DNA from: a virus
DNA: 25,548 nucleotides
Virus record (IMG/VR): IMGVR_UViG_3300040856_002599
Coordinates: 1-25,548 of that record
Strand: one strand, 5' to 3'
Part shown: in pieces, positions 3,961 through 16,472 of the stretch
Layout of the letters: each line of letters begins with the position of its first letter
How positions within the stretch are numbered: position 1 is the stretch's first letter
The notes under the pieces: generated by a model
Seen by the model: only the letters and a program-made list of their open reading frames with translations
Database searches by the model: none
What the model was told of the DNA's origin: nothing
Made by a program: the position numbers and the translations under genes

Positions 3961-4149
3961 TTAATTCCAAAATGTTAAACGGTCAATAAATGATGGCGCT
4001 TGCTGTTCGATCGATTGCCGATCTAAATTACCAAGCCATGTAAAGAACATCACGCCACCATTCGCAATGTATTTGTAACCACCATAGGCCATTATCGTGG
4101 CTAGAAAATACCCCAAGAAGAACATCTGTTTTTTTGATATGTTATTCAT
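3961..4149 (-). CDS. 62-residue single-TM protein
   Basis: The product starts MNNISKKQMFFLGYF; residues 9-24 or so form a hydrophobic helix after a basic start. A second weakly hydrophobic stretch (GGVMFFTWLG) follows before a soluble tail. GAGGGG lies 9 nt upstream of the ATG, inside the end of the preceding small gene, with which it overlaps by 8 bp. It belongs to the leftward string of membrane peptides. Function unknown. Confidence 0.6.
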   Translation of the reverse strand: MNNISKKQMFFLGYFLATIMAYGGYKYIANGGVMFFTWLGNLDRQSIEQQAPSFIDRLTFWN

Positions 4150-4270
4150 CTAAAAGCCCCTCGCTTTTCAAAATATGTTCAATGTTATCTAGGCGTATGT
4201 CGTGGTTAGTTACTAAGCTACAGACTGACAGCACAATAAATAACAACGCTACTAATCTAAACCAAGTCAT
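4142..4270 (-). CDS. 42-residue membrane or secreted peptide
   Basis: The N-terminus MTWFRLVALLFIVLSVCSL is a hydrophobic helix after one Arg, like a signal anchor or signal peptide. LSVC resembles a lipobox only weakly, since Val at -1 is unusual. A short acidic tail follows. Its ATG overlaps the stop of the preceding -1-frame coding region as ATGA, and its own stop overlaps the next gene's start. This matters because it places a translationally coupled start exactly at the end of the frame that has no start of its own, which supports that frame being translated. Function unknown. Confidence 0.55.
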   Translation of the reverse strand: MTWFRLVALLFIVLSVCSLVTNHDIRLDNIEHILKSEGLLDE

Positions 4271-4671
4271 CGCGTGTACCGCCCTTTGCTCGTAATTGTT
4301 AACACTCCATCAGATACCAGTTTTTTGAATATCTCATTAACCAACTCTTTGCCTATTTTGTACTCTGCCATCACTTCGCTTTTAACGACTGGGCCAGGAT
4401 CAAGACTGGTTATGTCTTCAATGACCGTTTTAGCGATCGGTCTATTTAGTCCGGTTTTTCTAGTCCGCTTTTCAGTAATCGGACTGGGTTTTTCGGTCTG
4501 CTTTATCGGTCTATTTGCCTGTTTTCGGTCTATTTGCGGTAATAGACCTTTTTCGCTCTCGTTGTAGTCCGTTTTTTTAGTCCGATTTACACGAGAGCCA
4601 ACTACTTTTTTCTGTGGATATCCCAGCCTAGAGTTAACTCCATGGCGGCAAATACGGACACGATAAACCAC
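4267..4671 (-). CDS. Basic linker plus winged-helix-like domain, probably expressed only as a -1 frameshift extension
   Basis: The open frame begins at a GTG (4671) with no ribosome binding site, inside the upstream membrane-protein gene. No other convincing start exists until very late in the frame. Coding probably enters at 4605 by -1 frameshifting from the 219-residue protein, adding 112 residues. The first 65 or so are Lys/Arg/Pro/Thr-rich and look disordered, with repeated NRP elements. The last 50 read like a winged-helix fold: a helix (KTVIEDITSL), VKSEVMAEYKIGKELVNEIF as a helix-turn-helix, then LVSDGVLTITSKGRYTR as a beta wing. It may bind DNA, but that is inference. Its stop overlaps the next gene as ATGA. 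Confidence 0.6.
   Translation of the reverse strand: MVYRVRICRHGVNSRLGYPQKKVVGSRVNRTKKTDYNESEKGLLPQIDRKQANRPIKQTEKPSPITEKRTRKTGLNRPIAKTVIEDITSLDPGPVVKSEVMAEYKIGKELVNEIFKKLVSDGVLTITSKGRYTR
4555..4611 (-). promoter_or_regulatory. Programmed -1 ribosomal frameshift signal (slippery heptamer plus stem-loop)
   Basis: On the minus strand the last sense codons of the 219-codon gene are AGA AAA AAG followed by TAG, so A AAA AAG sits in the exact X XXY YYZ phase (4611 to 4605). After a 6-nt spacer, a perfect 8-bp inverted repeat follows: GCTCTCGT (4598-4591) pairing with ACGAGAGC (4562-4555), with a 28-nt loop. Three more base pairs (GTA/TAC) are possible inside. A AAA AAG is the heptamer used in E. 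coli dnaX, and 5-9 nt is the usual spacer. GGGA about 9 nt upstream could act as a weak internal Shine-Dalgarno stimulator. Confidence 0.75.
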
Positions 4672-5261
4672 ATCACAATCAGGTCTACTTTTTCTTGCGA
4701 CCAGCCTGTGAACTTCGCAATGTGCCCAAAGATTGCCATATCACCGACTTCATACGATCGGGTGTTGCTTGTTAGTTTCTTTTTCTCTTCAAATAAATCA
4801 TCAAGTTGTTTTGATAGTGCGGTTTGCTTTTCAATCGTTTCATCTGATTTGGTAATGTGATTAGCGACCCTCTGAACGCCAGCATGTAACCCTAAGCGGT
4901 TTATTTGGCGTTCAACGGCTTCAATCTGTTCGTTGAGGGTGGACAGCTCGTTGTCAGCCTGTTTAGTTGCAGCGCTCAACCATGCGCCTATGCCGACCAT
5001 AATAGTCGCTAACAAAAGACCGGCTATTGTGTAAAAACGAAGCACGGCAATCACAGGAGCCGGGAAGAACTTGGAAAAATGAAATGTGAGAGCCGCTAGA
5101 GCAATGAAGAACAGCACGCCGTATTGCCAGTTGTAGTTAAACCCATAACTAGCGGCAAAAGTGGAAGTACACAAACTAACGCCTAGCGTCATCAATATTA
5201 GAGTAGTCTTGTGGTTTAAAAATGCGCTGGTTTTGTTTGCAAATTCATCTAAGTTACTCAT
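4602..5261 (-). CDS. Four-helix membrane protein with long coiled coil; 5' partner of the frameshift
   Basis: This 219-residue protein has predicted membrane helices at about 19-40, 46-64, 68-96 and 191-213, and a long charged heptad-like coiled coil at about 97-165 (Glu, Gln, Lys and Leu rich). With the N-terminus inside, the coiled coil would be periplasmic and the C-terminal HRKK cytoplasmic, by the positive-inside rule. AAAGGA precedes the ATG, which overlaps the upstream stop as ATGA. The zero-frame product ends right after a slippery heptamer. Slippage would instead give a 331-residue protein with a cytoplasmic basic linker and winged-helix-like domain. I do not recognise the family. 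The layout (four helices, then linker, then winged helix) recalls a motor-less FtsK, but only in outline. Confidence 0.75.
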   Translation of the reverse strand: MSNLDEFANKTSAFLNHKTTLILMTLGVSLCTSTFAASYGFNYNWQYGVLFFIALAALTFHFSKFFPAPVIAVLRFYTIAGLLLATIMVGIGAWLSAATKQADNELSTLNEQIEAVERQINRLGLHAGVQRVANHITKSDETIEKQTALSKQLDDLFEEKKKLTSNTRSYEVGDMAIFGHIAKFTGWSQEKVDLIVMWFIVSVFAAMELTLGWDIHRKK

Positions 5262-5434
5262 AGTCCTTTAACCCTCATAAAAATAGCCACTTCTTTGTTT
5301 ACAATCCGCGTCGCTTCGATGTCGTTTTTTGGTTTTAGCGATTTAATGCGCTCGCTCACAATGTCAGTCAGTGCGGTTAATTCTTGTTCGCAATCACATA
5401 TCGCTTTATTAGCTATCATTTTTCTAATGTTCAT
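5258..5434 (-). CDS. 58-residue soluble small protein
   Basis: The frame starts with an ATG placed 8 nt after a strong GGAGG and encodes a Lys/Glu/Ile-rich, probably helical peptide (MNIRKMIANKAICDCEQE at the start, FMRVKGL at the end). Its stop overlaps the ATG of the 219-residue membrane protein (ATGA), and it begins 3 bp after the preceding stop. It is just under the size many gene finders report. CDC near residue 14 is the only cysteine pair. Function unknown. Confidence 0.65.
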   Translation of the reverse strand: MNIRKMIANKAICDCEQELTALTDIVSERIKSLKPKNDIEATRIVNKEVAIFMRVKGL

Positions 5435-8608: not shown

Positions 8609-8908
8609 ATGATAGACGAAAATGATTTGGATGAGTTTATGCAGAGCCAAGCAATCACGCAAAGAGACAAATTAATAGCAGAGCAACAAATAAAAATTAT
8701 GGAGCTTAATGAAGAGCTGGAAAGGTTTAAAGAGGGTGCTAGGAAAACTCACATGATTATTTATGGAATTGGAGGGCCATTGAATGATAACAAGTTGGAA
8801 TACACGACAAGACAGATGGTAAATTTTAGTAAGATAATACGTAACTTCGAAAACTGTAACTATTTAAGTTGGTGCAAAAACGGCACATACTGGAGCGGTT
8901 ATGAGTAA
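8609..8908 (+). CDS. 99-residue coiled-coil hypothetical protein
   Basis: I start at the second ATG (MIDENDLDEFM) because AAGGATGAG lies at ribosome-binding distance; the ATG at 8600 touches that site directly. Residues 15-45 (AITQRDKLIAEQQIKIM and on) form a charged coiled coil. The rest is mixed, ending SWCKNGTYWSGYE. It overlaps the methyltransferase ATG by 8 bp, so the two are coupled. Function unknown. Confidence 0.55.
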   Translation: MIDENDLDEFMQSQAITQRDKLIAEQQIKIMELNEELERFKEGARKTHMIIYGIGGPLNDNKLEYTTRQMVNFSKIIRNFENCNYLSWCKNGTYWSGYE

Positions 8909-9773
8909 TAAAGCGAAAGTTCTTGATTTGTTTAGCGGGATTGGCGGTTTCAGTTTGGGGTTAGAATCAACCGGGCACTATAAAACATCAGCATTTTGTG
9001 AAATTGATCCGTTTTGTCAGAAAGTACTTAAAAAACATTGGCCAAACGTGCCAGTTTATTCAGATATAAAGGAGATATTAAATTGTGAGCTCGGAAAAAT
9101 CGATGTTATCACAGGCGGCTACCCTTGCCAACCATTCAGTAATGCCGGGAAGCGTAAAGGCGCGGAGGATGACCGCCACCTCTGGCCGATCATGTTTGAA
9201 ATTATTAAACAGCAAAGACCCAGCATTATCATTGCTGAAAATGTTACTGGTCACGTCACAATGGGGCTCGACAAAGTGCTTGCTGACTTGGAAAGTGAAG
9301 GCTACACCGCAGCGCCGGTTGTTATTCCAGCTTGCGCCGTCGATGCCCAACATAGAAGAGACAGAGTGTGGATTATTGCCCACGCCAAGAGCGAAAGAGT
9401 CCGGGCCCATGCCTCCACTCAGGCACCCGCCAAAAAAGAACGCACGAAACTACTCAAAAAAAACGGGGAAGCATTGTCAGATGACTATCACAAGGTATGC
9501 GCAACTCTGGCCGACTCCAACAGCGAGAGAATACAAGGGAGCAAGGAAGCCGGAAACATTAAAAGCGAAAGGGCGCAATCCGAGAAACACGCTTTGCGAT
9601 GCAGTTGCACACGAGACTGGCAGCCGTGGCCAACTGAACCCGGAGTGGATAGAGTGGCTGATGGGATACCCGACAGGGTGGACAGAATTAGAAGTCTAGG
9701 CAATTCCGTTGTGCCTCAATTGGTGGCTAAAATAGGTAATGCGATTTATTCTGAGTATTTAAGCGATGGTTAA
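8901..9773 (+). CDS. DNA (cytosine-5) methyltransferase
   Basis: A complete 290-residue C5-MTase. Motif I is DLFSGIGGF (residues 9-17, AdoMet site), motif IV is GGYPCQPFS with nucleophile C76, motif VI is ENV (113-115), motif VIII is QHRRDRVW (150-157), and motif X is GNSVVPQ (268-274). The variable target-recognition region (about 165-240) is short, so the specificity cannot be read. It methylates cytosine C5 in double-stranded DNA and probably protects phage DNA from host restriction; no cognate nuclease is seen nearby. GGAG precedes the ATG, which overlaps the upstream gene. The half after about residue 125 shares its DNA with a second family-like reading frame (see 9085-9699). Confidence 0.93.
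   Translation: MSNKAKVLDLFSGIGGFSLGLESTGHYKTSAFCEIDPFCQKVLKKHWPNVPVYSDIKEILNCELGKIDVITGGYPCQPFSNAGKRKGAEDDRHLWPIMFEIIKQQRPSIIIAENVTGHVTMGLDKVLADLESEGYTAAPVVIPACAVDAQHRRDRVWIIAHAKSERVRAHASTQAPAKKERTKLLKKNGEALSDDYHKVCATLADSNSERIQGSKEAGNIKSERAQSEKHALRCSCTRDWQPWPTEPGVDRVADGIPDRVDRIRSLGNSVVPQLVAKIGNAIYSEYLSDG
9085..9699 (+). CDS. Second reading frame within the methyltransferase gene, resembling a phage methyltransferase-associated protein
   Basis: In the +1 frame a 204-codon frame runs from a GTG without a clear ribosome binding site. From about residue 64 (nt 9274 on) it is not random-looking: LLTWKVKATPQRRLLFQLAP, GLLPTPRA, LWPTPTAREYKGARKPETL, GQLNPEWIEWLMGYPTGWTE. I recognise this run of WPTPTA and LNPEWVEWLMGxPxGWT as a motif set of phage proteins often annotated as methyltransferase parts. 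The zero frame over the same bases also reads as family-typical, with motif VIII and the motif X region. It is therefore either a true overlapping gene or the overprinted remnant of one. Recognition is from memory, not a search. Confidence 0.5.
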   Translation: MSSEKSMLSQAATLANHSVMPGSVKARRMTATSGRSCLKLLNSKDPALSLLKMLLVTSQWGSTKCLLTWKVKATPQRRLLFQLAPSMPNIEETECGLLPTPRAKESGPMPPLRHPPKKNARNYSKKTGKHCQMTITRYAQLWPTPTAREYKGARKPETLKAKGRNPRNTLCDAVAHETGSRGQLNPEWIEWLMGYPTGWTELEV

Positions 9774-12989: not shown

Positions 12990-14002
12990 CCCGTCACCTT
13001 GGCGTCAAATTCGTTCCTTAGCTTTTGTGTAAATTCGTTGTTAACTGCGCACGCTTTAGGGTTGGCCACAATCTCAGTGCTTTTAAACCCATCTTTACCG
13101 TTAAGAACCTTTTCACCATTAATAATATAATTTACGTGCCATCGGTCGTGAGCCTCGACATAATCCCATGGCACCAGATCAGGGTGCAAAACGTGGCAGG
13201 GGTATGCGGTTTGTTGCTTTTCGTTTGGTATTGTTCTCTGGTATCGCTCACAAAAAAAAGTGGAGTCTTCTTTTGGTGTGGAGTGGGCACAAGTGCGGCA
13301 GTTCACTTCTTTTGTTAGCTTTGAGTCGTGGCACAGATCATGAGCAGCGCACATTTTACATTGATACCAATCTGGCTTGTCTGATATTGGTGGCGGTGGT
13401 GCTTCTGACATTGCGATTCTTTTGCACTTATCAACCAGTTTTGTTGCAACGCTCTTTTTATATTTAACCCGTTCTGTGTGTAGTCTGTCATCGTCTTTAC
13501 AGACTGCAACGTATAGGGCGCGGTCTATTTTTGAGCCGTGCATATAAACTTGCATCTGTGCGTAATGCATTGGTTTTGACTCTTCAACGCCATCTTTAAC
13601 AAGTTGATCGAATGATTTTTTATTGTGTGTTTTTTCTTCTAAAACGTGGCGTTTTCGTGGAGCCTCTGGTACGCCATACATTATGATGCCGTCTAAATGG
13701 CCTTTAACATGACACCCAAAATCAACAGTGTATTGATTGTATCCTGTATATTGTATTTCCATTCCTATGGATTTTAGGTCTTCATTTAATATAGATTCTT
13801 CATTGTGGCCGCGACGAAATAAGCGCAACATGCGACCATCAAACTTTTCAACAACAGCCCATCGAAACGATAGCCACATCCAGCGTTCACAGTGATGGCC
13901 AGCCATAGAAAGACCAAAGTGATAGCGTGGCTTTTGTTGCTGGCTTTCGTGGTACTCATTAATGAGCGTTTCTATCGATTTGATGGGTGTTGTCAACTCC
14001 AT
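12986..14002 (-). CDS. Cas4-like PD-(D/E)XK nuclease with Fe-S cluster motif
   Basis: The 338-residue protein shows the RecB/Cas4 nuclease core: GHLDG with D104, LEEKT with E122 and K124, and HYAQMQVYM with Q149. A lone C38 (HHCERWMW), followed much later by C215, C218 and C224 (QCKMCAAHDLC, CxxC-x5-C), matches the 4Fe-4S arrangement of Cas4/AddB. Four more cysteines (C235, C238, C251, C269) could bind zinc. Cas4-family enzymes resect DNA ends to give single strands, fitting its place between exonuclease and helicase genes. No CRISPR array is present, so it serves phage recombination. It starts 12 bp after the small gene upstream. Confidence 0.85.
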   Translation of the reverse strand: MELTTPIKSIETLINEYHESQQQKPRYHFGLSMAGHHCERWMWLSFRWAVVEKFDGRMLRLFRRGHNEESILNEDLKSIGMEIQYTGYNQYTVDFGCHVKGHLDGIIMYGVPEAPRKRHVLEEKTHNKKSFDQLVKDGVEESKPMHYAQMQVYMHGSKIDRALYVAVCKDDDRLHTERVKYKKSVATKLVDKCKRIAMSEAPPPPISDKPDWYQCKMCAAHDLCHDSKLTKEVNCRTCAHSTPKEDSTFFCERYQRTIPNEKQQTAYPCHVLHPDLVPWDYVEAHDRWHVNYIINGEKVLNGKDGFKSTEIVANPKACAVNNEFTQKLRNEFDAKVTG

Positions 14003-15795: not shown

Positions 15796-16472
15796 TGCTT
15801 TACGCCTTTTATCTTATTGATGATATTTCCAAGGTCAGGATATTCCCAAGGATCGAGACGGCCACCTCTATCTTTTGCTTGCCAAAAACCATCTGATCGA
15901 GTTTGAATCATTCTTTGCTCATTACCGTCTTGGTCTTTTTCTACCCTAAAGGCTAGGCATTGATCAAAGAAATAGGGCAAGCCTTGTGTTGTCTTGTTCC
16001 CAGGCATAGAAGGGTAGTAAAGGAGGCGTCCAAGCTCATCTTTTGCCTGTTCAAGTTTGGCGGTCATATAGACATGTTTTCCGGGAATGTCTCGAAAGTT
16101 GCGGATGATTTCGCTTATCTGGTCGGCCATTTCGCCGTAGGCCATACGTTTATCCTTTGCGCCTTTTTTTTCGGTCGATAAACACACCTCACCTATCTCG
16201 CTTATTGAGTCAATGGCAACAGAATCAAACTGCTTTGCTTCTTCTGATTGCGTTAGCCACTGGTAGGCCTCCATCAGCTCAGACATGGATTTGATTTCAA
16301 TGAATGGTATTTGCACATCAGAGATTGATAACAAGCCGCCCTCAGCCGATAAAACGACCGGATTAGGCATCGTTCTAATTGCATAAGTTTTACCCGCGCC
16401 AGATTGCCCATACCCTAAAAGGTTTACTTTTAGAGTGGACATATCAGCGCTATTTTTAAGCATAATAGCCAT
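15792..16472 (-). CDS. Sak4-like RecA-fold ATPase (AAA_24), single-strand annealing type
   Basis: The 226-residue protein has Walker A GQSGAGKT (22-29) and Walker B FDSVAIDS (D88), then YMTAKLEQAKDELGRL and a C-terminal half typical of phage AAA_24/Sak4 proteins, which keep only the RecA core. Sak4 proteins promote annealing of single strands together with an SSB, and an SSB-like gene lies two genes downstream. AGGA lies upstream of the ATG. It is the first gene after the leftward promoter at 16.55 kb, so it is expressed first in the operon. Confidence 0.85.
   Translation of the reverse strand: MAIMLKNSADMSTLKVNLLGYGQSGAGKTYAIRTMPNPVVLSAEGGLLSISDVQIPFIEIKSMSELMEAYQWLTQSEEAKQFDSVAIDSISEIGEVCLSTEKKGAKDKRMAYGEMADQISEIIRNFRDIPGKHVYMTAKLEQAKDELGRLLYYPSMPGNKTTQGLPYFFDQCLAFRVEKDQDGNEQRMIQTRSDGFWQAKDRGGRLDPWEYPDLGNIINKIKGVKQ

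Follow-up and report, generated by a model that had tools for sequence, protein, structure and literature searches.

We found in the window, a virus record of 25,548 bases that consists of a single metagenomic contig, a gene for a predicted membrane anchor that is very likely extended, by a -1 ribosomal frameshift, with a linker and a winged helix, and whose linker-coding DNA carries a dense array of the pentamer RGWCY. To the whole explanation that we propose, in which an anchor and an anchor/DNA-binding fusion are both made and together tie phage DNA to the inner membrane, we assign a probability of about 0.55. Frameshifting itself is a known mechanism. The gene family and its layout were absent from the papers and the phage collection searched, and a search of the literature (mostly of sources other than subscription journals) gave no description of this gene. 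The phages that carry the gene are uncultured and appear to belong to a mostly undescribed group. The coordinates of the features are given in Table 1.

Table 1. Features of the anchor gene and its surroundings in the window
Feature	Position	Strand	Basis
Upstream gene, 57 aa, C-terminus EATRIVNKEVAIFMRVKG	5258..5431	-	read by eye
Zero-frame membrane protein, four hydrophobic segments, coiled coil	4602..5261	-	ORF and hydropathy
TM1, aa 19-37	5151..5207	-	hydropathy peak 1.54
TM2, aa 48-66	5064..5120	-	hydropathy peak 1.75
TM3, aa 71-89	4995..5051	-	hydropathy peak 2.08
Coiled-coil loop, aa 90-193, putatively periplasmic	4683..4994	-	hydropathy; L009 model
TM4, aa 194-212	4626..4682	-	hydropathy peak 2.09
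Slippery heptamer A AAA AAG	4605..4611	-	sequence; phase conserved among split relatives
Zero-frame stop TAG, flush with heptamer	4602..4604	-	sequence
Candidate stimulatory stem-loop, 8-bp stem, 28-nt loop, preceded by 6-nt spacer	4555..4598	-	sequence and folding
-1-frame extension with a low-complexity linker and a winged helix, translated only upon the shift	4267..4608	-	ORF and homology
Eleven RGWCY sites (ten AGWCC, nine of those AGWCCG), both orientations, in linker-coding DNA	4403..4583	-	motif counts
Winged helix (-1 product, residues 56-113)	4270..4443	-	model mb7e2ccc78ff4, PDB matches
Next gene, 42 aa, one hydrophobic segment; its ATG overlaps the -1 stop as ATGA	4142..4270	-	ORF

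The anchor gene and its frameshift signal

The zero-frame gene encodes a protein of 219 aa and its 3' end reads CAC AGA AAA AAG TAG. The four membrane helices proposed by the first-pass annotation, a reading of the DNA that preceded our analysis, agree with the four hydrophobic segments seen by hydropathy in the window. Across the family (see below) this number was counted in seven members, with a coiled coil of about 100 residues between the third and the fourth segment in the complete genes, and in a model of the relative L009 two helices (82-146 and 151-178) span the region that matches the coiled-coil loop of the window. Four spans would place the N- and C-termini of the anchor on one side of the membrane, presumably the cytoplasmic side. 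The membrane part of the window is homologous to that of L022 (BLASTP, E 4e-8) and aligns weakly with those of L003, L009 and L013. In some relatives a short gene with a hydrophobic segment is likewise found downstream of the anchor gene. On the other side, the small proteins encoded upstream in the window, in L009 (2615-2821) and in L013 (767-958) share, as judged by eye, an ending like xIrxxIeqEitifMrmkG, and a conserved partner gene at this place is possible.

At the end of the zero frame we found the elements of a -1 frameshift signal as they had been annotated, and all coordinates given there proved correct. The heptamer lies in the X XXY YYZ phase, TAG follows directly, and a 6-nt spacer (TAGTTG) leads to a perfect stem in which GCTCTCGT (4598-4591) pairs with ACGAGAGC (4562-4555) over 8/8 bp. 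The region 4611-4540, which includes the stretch 4555-4611 for which a fold check had been advised, folds with -18.6 kcal/mol against -9.5 +/- 2.3 for shuffled sequences (z -3.96), and none of the 200 shuffles was equally good. The energies calculated for an upstream Shine-Dalgarno-like stimulator were no better than those of shuffles in the members of the family (lowest P 0.05, in L022). Past the slip the -1 frame runs for 112 codons up to a TGA (4269-4267) that overlaps the ATG of the next gene (4270-4268), and the fused product would have the expected 331 residues (219 + 112). The claim that this frame lacks a usable start also held, its sole start ahead of the domain being a GTG without a visible ribosome-binding site, 69 nt upstream of the end of the stop. 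The heptamer is, as was remarked before, that of Escherichia coli dnaX, where A AAA AAG is followed by a downstream stem too.

The heptamers A AAA AAG and G GGA AAG occur in phase at about 5e-4 per codon in contigs of this group (17 cases among the 32,415 in-phase positions that eight contigs offer, the members of the family included). The two frames overlap by 45 codons in the window, which gives a chance of about 0.02 of finding one of the two heptamers there. Taken alone, the heptamer of the window is thus suggestive only, and the case for frameshifting rests on the relatives.

Relatives of the anchor gene

With the window protein as direct query no relatives were found, at the sensitivity used, in viral contigs, genome contigs or GenBank phages. 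Relatives were reached via phages that share the tail protein encoded at 9-1571 of the window, in which the same place was then inspected. From there a chain of searches led from L003 to L009, from L009 to L013, from a profile of the -1 domains to L022 and from L022 to L038. The heptamer was not used in finding L003, L013, L022 and L038, which came up by protein similarity or position; L023 and L024 were added from a blind heptamer scan and from position, and their membership is based on architecture and position, without sequence similarity. The proteins of L003, L009, L022 and L024 and the -1 domain of the window had no match in the phages searched, the L022 protein had none in plasmids, and in the stretches examined of L004, L005 and L007 no such membrane gene was present.

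The gene is split in the window and in five other phages (L003, L013, L022, L038 and L023). In each, the zero frame encodes several membrane helices and a coiled coil, and the -1 frame a winged-helix or helix-turn-helix-like domain. All six split members have one of the heptamers A AAA AAG and G GGA AAG, in phase and 0-7 codons ahead of the stop. In L003 a membrane protein of 249 aa ends with CTG GGA AAG TAG, the heptamer being flush with the stop, and the -1 frame, which runs into the winged helix, opens just four codons before that stop. The ends of L022 (CTG GGA AAG CGG TAG) and L038 (TTG GGA AAG TAA) are alike, with -1 frames whose open stretch begins 9 and 10 codons ahead of the stop, respectively. 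L013 ends with GTA AAA AAG AGT CTC GCG GCG GCG TGA and its -1 frame is open into the winged helix; L023, whose N-terminus is missing at the contig end, reads GGA AAA AAG CCA GAA CTG AGG GGC GTG GGG TAG and has a helix-turn-helix-like extension and a hairpin across the stop. Downstream structure is more variable: the folding z is -5.8 in the window, -4.2 in L038 and -2.4 in L003, the structure is weak in L022 (z -1.3) and L023 (z -1.4), and none that is strong was seen in L013 (z +0.3). Of the elements that were to be compared among homologues, the heptamer phase is conserved in all split members; a strong stem was seen in the window, L038 and L003. A perfect 22-bp inverted repeat with a 3-nt loop was observed in L038 at 4765-4811, about 60 nt 3' of the heptamer.

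Two members, L009 (352 aa) and L024 (357 aa), have the same plan of membrane part, linker and winged helix in a single frame. The membrane part of L009 is 61% identical to that of L003, and the -1 product of the window matches the C-terminal domain of L009 with 39% identity over 59 aa (E 9e-11). These natural in-frame fusions, homologous to the -1 domain of the window, together with the in-phase heptamers of the split relatives make it very likely that the frameshift fusion is real.

The chance of a heptamer in the overlap of the two frames is 0.0021 for L003, 0.024 for L013, 0.0047 for L022 and 0.0052 for L038. Since L022 and L038 are 65% identical to each other they were counted once, and the joint chance over the three lineages L003, L013 and L038 is about 3e-7. 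The blind scan covered 612 ORFs, and one of eight heptamers was required together with a -1 extension of 50 codons or more. Apart from the membrane-gene family, the hits were a conserved gene pair of the tail-chaperone type (heptamer G GGA AAC/AAG) from the same contigs and only a few others. The site of E. coli dnaX was recovered at its known place by the script used for the anchor genes. In the -1 frame nonsynonymous differences (pN 0.43-0.51) are fewer than synonymous ones (pS 0.75-0.81); a dN/dS ratio is not given because synonymous sites are saturated. The -1 extension is thus conserved as a protein and lacks a start of its own, a possible GTG in L013 excepted.

That GTG, which overlaps the stop as GTGA, would fit with the winged helix being made as a separate protein by translational coupling or reinitiation, and coupled genes often have such a relative frame. 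However, there is no usable start near the stop in the window, L003, L022 or L038: L022 and L038 lack any -1 start codon ahead of the winged helix, and the next start is found 228 nt downstream in the window, 102 nt in L003, 228 nt in L022 and 363 nt in L038, inside the domain in the window, L022 and L038. In-frame fusions exist, and L013 too carries A AAA AAG. Separate synthesis, which would leave the in-phase heptamers unexplained, is therefore very unlikely. Among the relatives found we looked for one in which the heptamer is disrupted while both frames stay open and the second has its own start, and there was none.

Runs of six A are hot spots for indels and the window is one metagenomic contig, so that an error of sequencing or assembly, or decay of the gene, could be thought to have split the frame at the homopolymer. 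The arrangement recurs, however, in six distinct contigs with both parts conserved, and an error at A6 fails for three members since GGGAAAG is not a homopolymer; we find this reading barely credible. The GGGAAAG members are equally unexplained by slippage of RNA polymerase on A6, for which the site in the window, L013 and L023 is suitably A-rich. Transcriptional slippage generally requires runs of A longer than 7 or of T longer than 8 (PMC3711429), and a run of six is below that, which leaves this route to the fusion highly improbable.

Other overlapping frames were observed in these contigs. A conserved gene for a protein of 120-130 aa (L003 4867-5235, L019 6677-7042, L020 6736-7110, L022 6629-7024, L023 2275-2655 and others) precedes that of the tail protein. 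Either G GGA AAC or G GGA AAG stands at its stop or close by, and some 105 codons follow in the -1 frame; this is presumably the tail-chaperone frameshift of these phages. In L022 a gene at 16189-16470 (plus strand) has T TTA AAG one codon before its stop and a 73-codon -1 extension into the next ORF, possibly a further frameshift. In the window an ORF of 204 aa (9085-9699, plus strand) lies in another frame inside a C5-cytosine methyltransferase gene (8901-9773; PF00145, E 1e-46) and has a match of its own, 195 aa long, to phrog_1008 ('DNA methyltransferase', E 7e-33), so that one stretch matches a methyltransferase-labelled family in each of two frames.

The linker and the winged helix

The domain at the end of the -1 frame had been described as winged-helix-like, and both its model (pLDDT 82-92 by block of 10) and that of L009 indeed show three helices and then a beta wing. 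The nearest solved folds are the DNA-binding domains of GntR-type regulators (DasR, AraR; Foldseek probability 1.0, E ~0.07). Against Pfam no match of the winged helix was above the cut-off (best E 0.0034 for the window and 3e-5 for L013), and weak profile matches include replication initiators as well as regulators (e.g. phrog_270, E 3e-6 for L013). The full-length model of L009 has a pTM of 0.33 and is poor beyond the coiled coil and the winged helix, for which reason its matches to viral structures were set aside. A RecA-like motor domain was absent from the members scanned. The linker is of low complexity and variable, being basic in the window, rich in proline and lysine in L022 and acidic in L038; the basic linker of the first-pass annotation is therefore right for the window and is no trait of the family.

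A site array in the linker DNA

A further finding, overlooked in the earlier annotation, was that the linker-coding DNA contains an array of short sites. In the window it holds all four copies of CGGACTA in the contig and three of the four exact copies of AAATAGACCG, both of which are forms of the single pentamer RGWCY; the fourth AAATAGACCG lies outside the array at 13521-13530 (minus strand), where RGWCY reaches 3 per 200 nt, equal second in the contig. With 11 sites per 200 bases against a contig mean of 0.72 and a next best of 3, the linker is the densest stretch of the window, and with four others for which the same was found this makes five of the eight phages (8-11 against about 1), the other counts being 11 in L003, 9 in L009, 8 in L013 and 10 in L024 (mean 0.97). 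In these five linkers the sites occupy all three codon phases and both strands, exceed in number those of codon shuffles and of synonymous shuffles (P at most 0.002 in each), and RGWCY ranks first among 200 palindromic pentamers. Each phage has its own flavour of the site, for instance AGWCCG in the window, ACCGGTC in L024, AGACCA in L009 and AGWCT in L003. It was in the window, L013 and L009 that the motif was first spotted, by eye, and L024 and largely L003 are therefore the independent tests. The array is absent from L022, L038 and L023; L038 has many GCTAC/GTAGC, in step with the protein repeat.

The array of the window starts within the loop of the frameshift stem, which contains two sites, and its core ten end at the start of the winged helix. 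We consider it probable that the winged helix binds the array. An A+T-rich unwinding element was sought beside the array and not found, and a centromere-like or regulatory role is thus as open as that of an origin.

The fusion could instead act from the membrane as a regulator of transcription, or of its own gene, comparable to ToxR and CadC, with the coiled coil sensing conditions outside and with no tether. The closest solved winged-helix folds are those of GntR-type repressors and the sites sit in the protein's own gene, in line with such a role. However, ten sites in a coding region, none of them by a promoter, exceed what simple repression needs, ToxR-type proteins have an N-terminal winged helix and one span, unlike the proteins found here, and the weak profile matches extend to replication initiators. 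On balance we regard regulation without a tether as rather unlikely.

Proposed mechanism

In the explanation that we prefer, most ribosomes would halt at TAG and yield the 219-aa anchor, and a fraction would slip back one base on A AAA AAG, aided by the stem-loop, and yield the 331-aa protein of anchor, linker and winged helix. The coiled coil would presumably join both forms in one assembly. The winged helix would face the cytoplasm, where it would most likely bind the RGWCY sites within the linker-coding part of its own gene. Since the array lies in the DNA for the linker between anchor and DNA-binding domain, the product may hold DNA at the membrane of the cell. Binding would then attach the phage DNA to the inner membrane, and the attachment would serve replication, segregation or local control. 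A tether role in replication or segregation is plausible to us, somewhat short of an even chance. More tentative is the idea that one stretch of DNA has three jobs, namely as the RNA of the frameshift stem-loop, as code for the linker and as an array (origin or centromere) that is bound by its own protein and so fastens the genome to the inner membrane.

If the mechanism is true, slippage would set the share of anchors that bear a DNA-binding arm. L009 and L024, which are in frame, show that the short anchor is not always made, so that a fixed ratio is not universally needed. The gene lies outside the tail and coat genes, in which frameshifting of tailed phages is mainly known, and little is known of the retention of phage DNA at the membrane outside phi29. 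The protein, the frameshift signal and the candidate binding array all lie within about 1 kb and are directly testable in laboratory strains.

Comparison with known systems

FtsK has four membrane spans, a long linker and a C-terminal winged helix, a plan that the anchor family resembles but without the motor domain. The N-terminal winged helix and single span of ToxR and CadC are not those of the anchor family. The G/GT pair of phage lambda has the same heptamer G GGA AAG as L003, L022 and L038, near the zero-frame stop, and likewise gains a C-terminal extension in the -1 frame. G and GT are, however, cytoplasmic tail-assembly proteins, whereas the anchor is a membrane protein whose gene is not in the tail-gene position, and the related contigs have a separate pair of the G/GT type upstream, in the tail region, with its own heptamer. 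In E. coli dnaX the heptamer and downstream stem are alike, but the shift shortens the product, whereas here a domain would be gained.

The remark that a frameshift in a membrane-protein gene is unusual still stands, with E. coli copA as a partial precedent, in which a -1 frameshift in a membrane-protein gene truncates the product to a soluble chaperone (PMC5009743). The copA shift shortens, whereas that of the window would add a predicted DNA-binding domain. Among phage structural proteins (T3, A2, A118), Ig-like domains are joined either in frame or by frameshift (PMC5009743). A C-terminal domain is thus reached either way, as in the anchor family, but the Ig-like domain is extracellular and on virion proteins, whereas the domain found here is a predicted DNA-binding domain on a membrane protein.

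The p16.7 protein of phi29 has a coiled coil, a single membrane span and a different DNA-binding fold. As a membrane protein of the phage it binds DNA and has an organising role in replication at the membrane (PMC4974454). Of the systems compared it is the closest in role, as a likeness without shown relation: it is not known to involve a frameshift and the anchor family has four hydrophobic segments, and no p16.7-like sequence similarity was found in the phage records searched.

The replication origin of lambda consists of repeated sites in the coding DNA of gene O, beside the part that encodes the winged-helix domain of O; O itself is soluble, its winged helix is N-terminal, and its four longer iterons adjoin an A+T-rich element. 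The anchor family differs in that its winged helix is C-terminal and linked to the membrane and in that its array has no A+T-rich element. Nevertheless, of the systems compared lambda O and its origin are the closest in layout, a resemblance rather than a shown relation, with repeats in the protein's own gene beside the winged helix, as found in five of the eight members of the anchor family.
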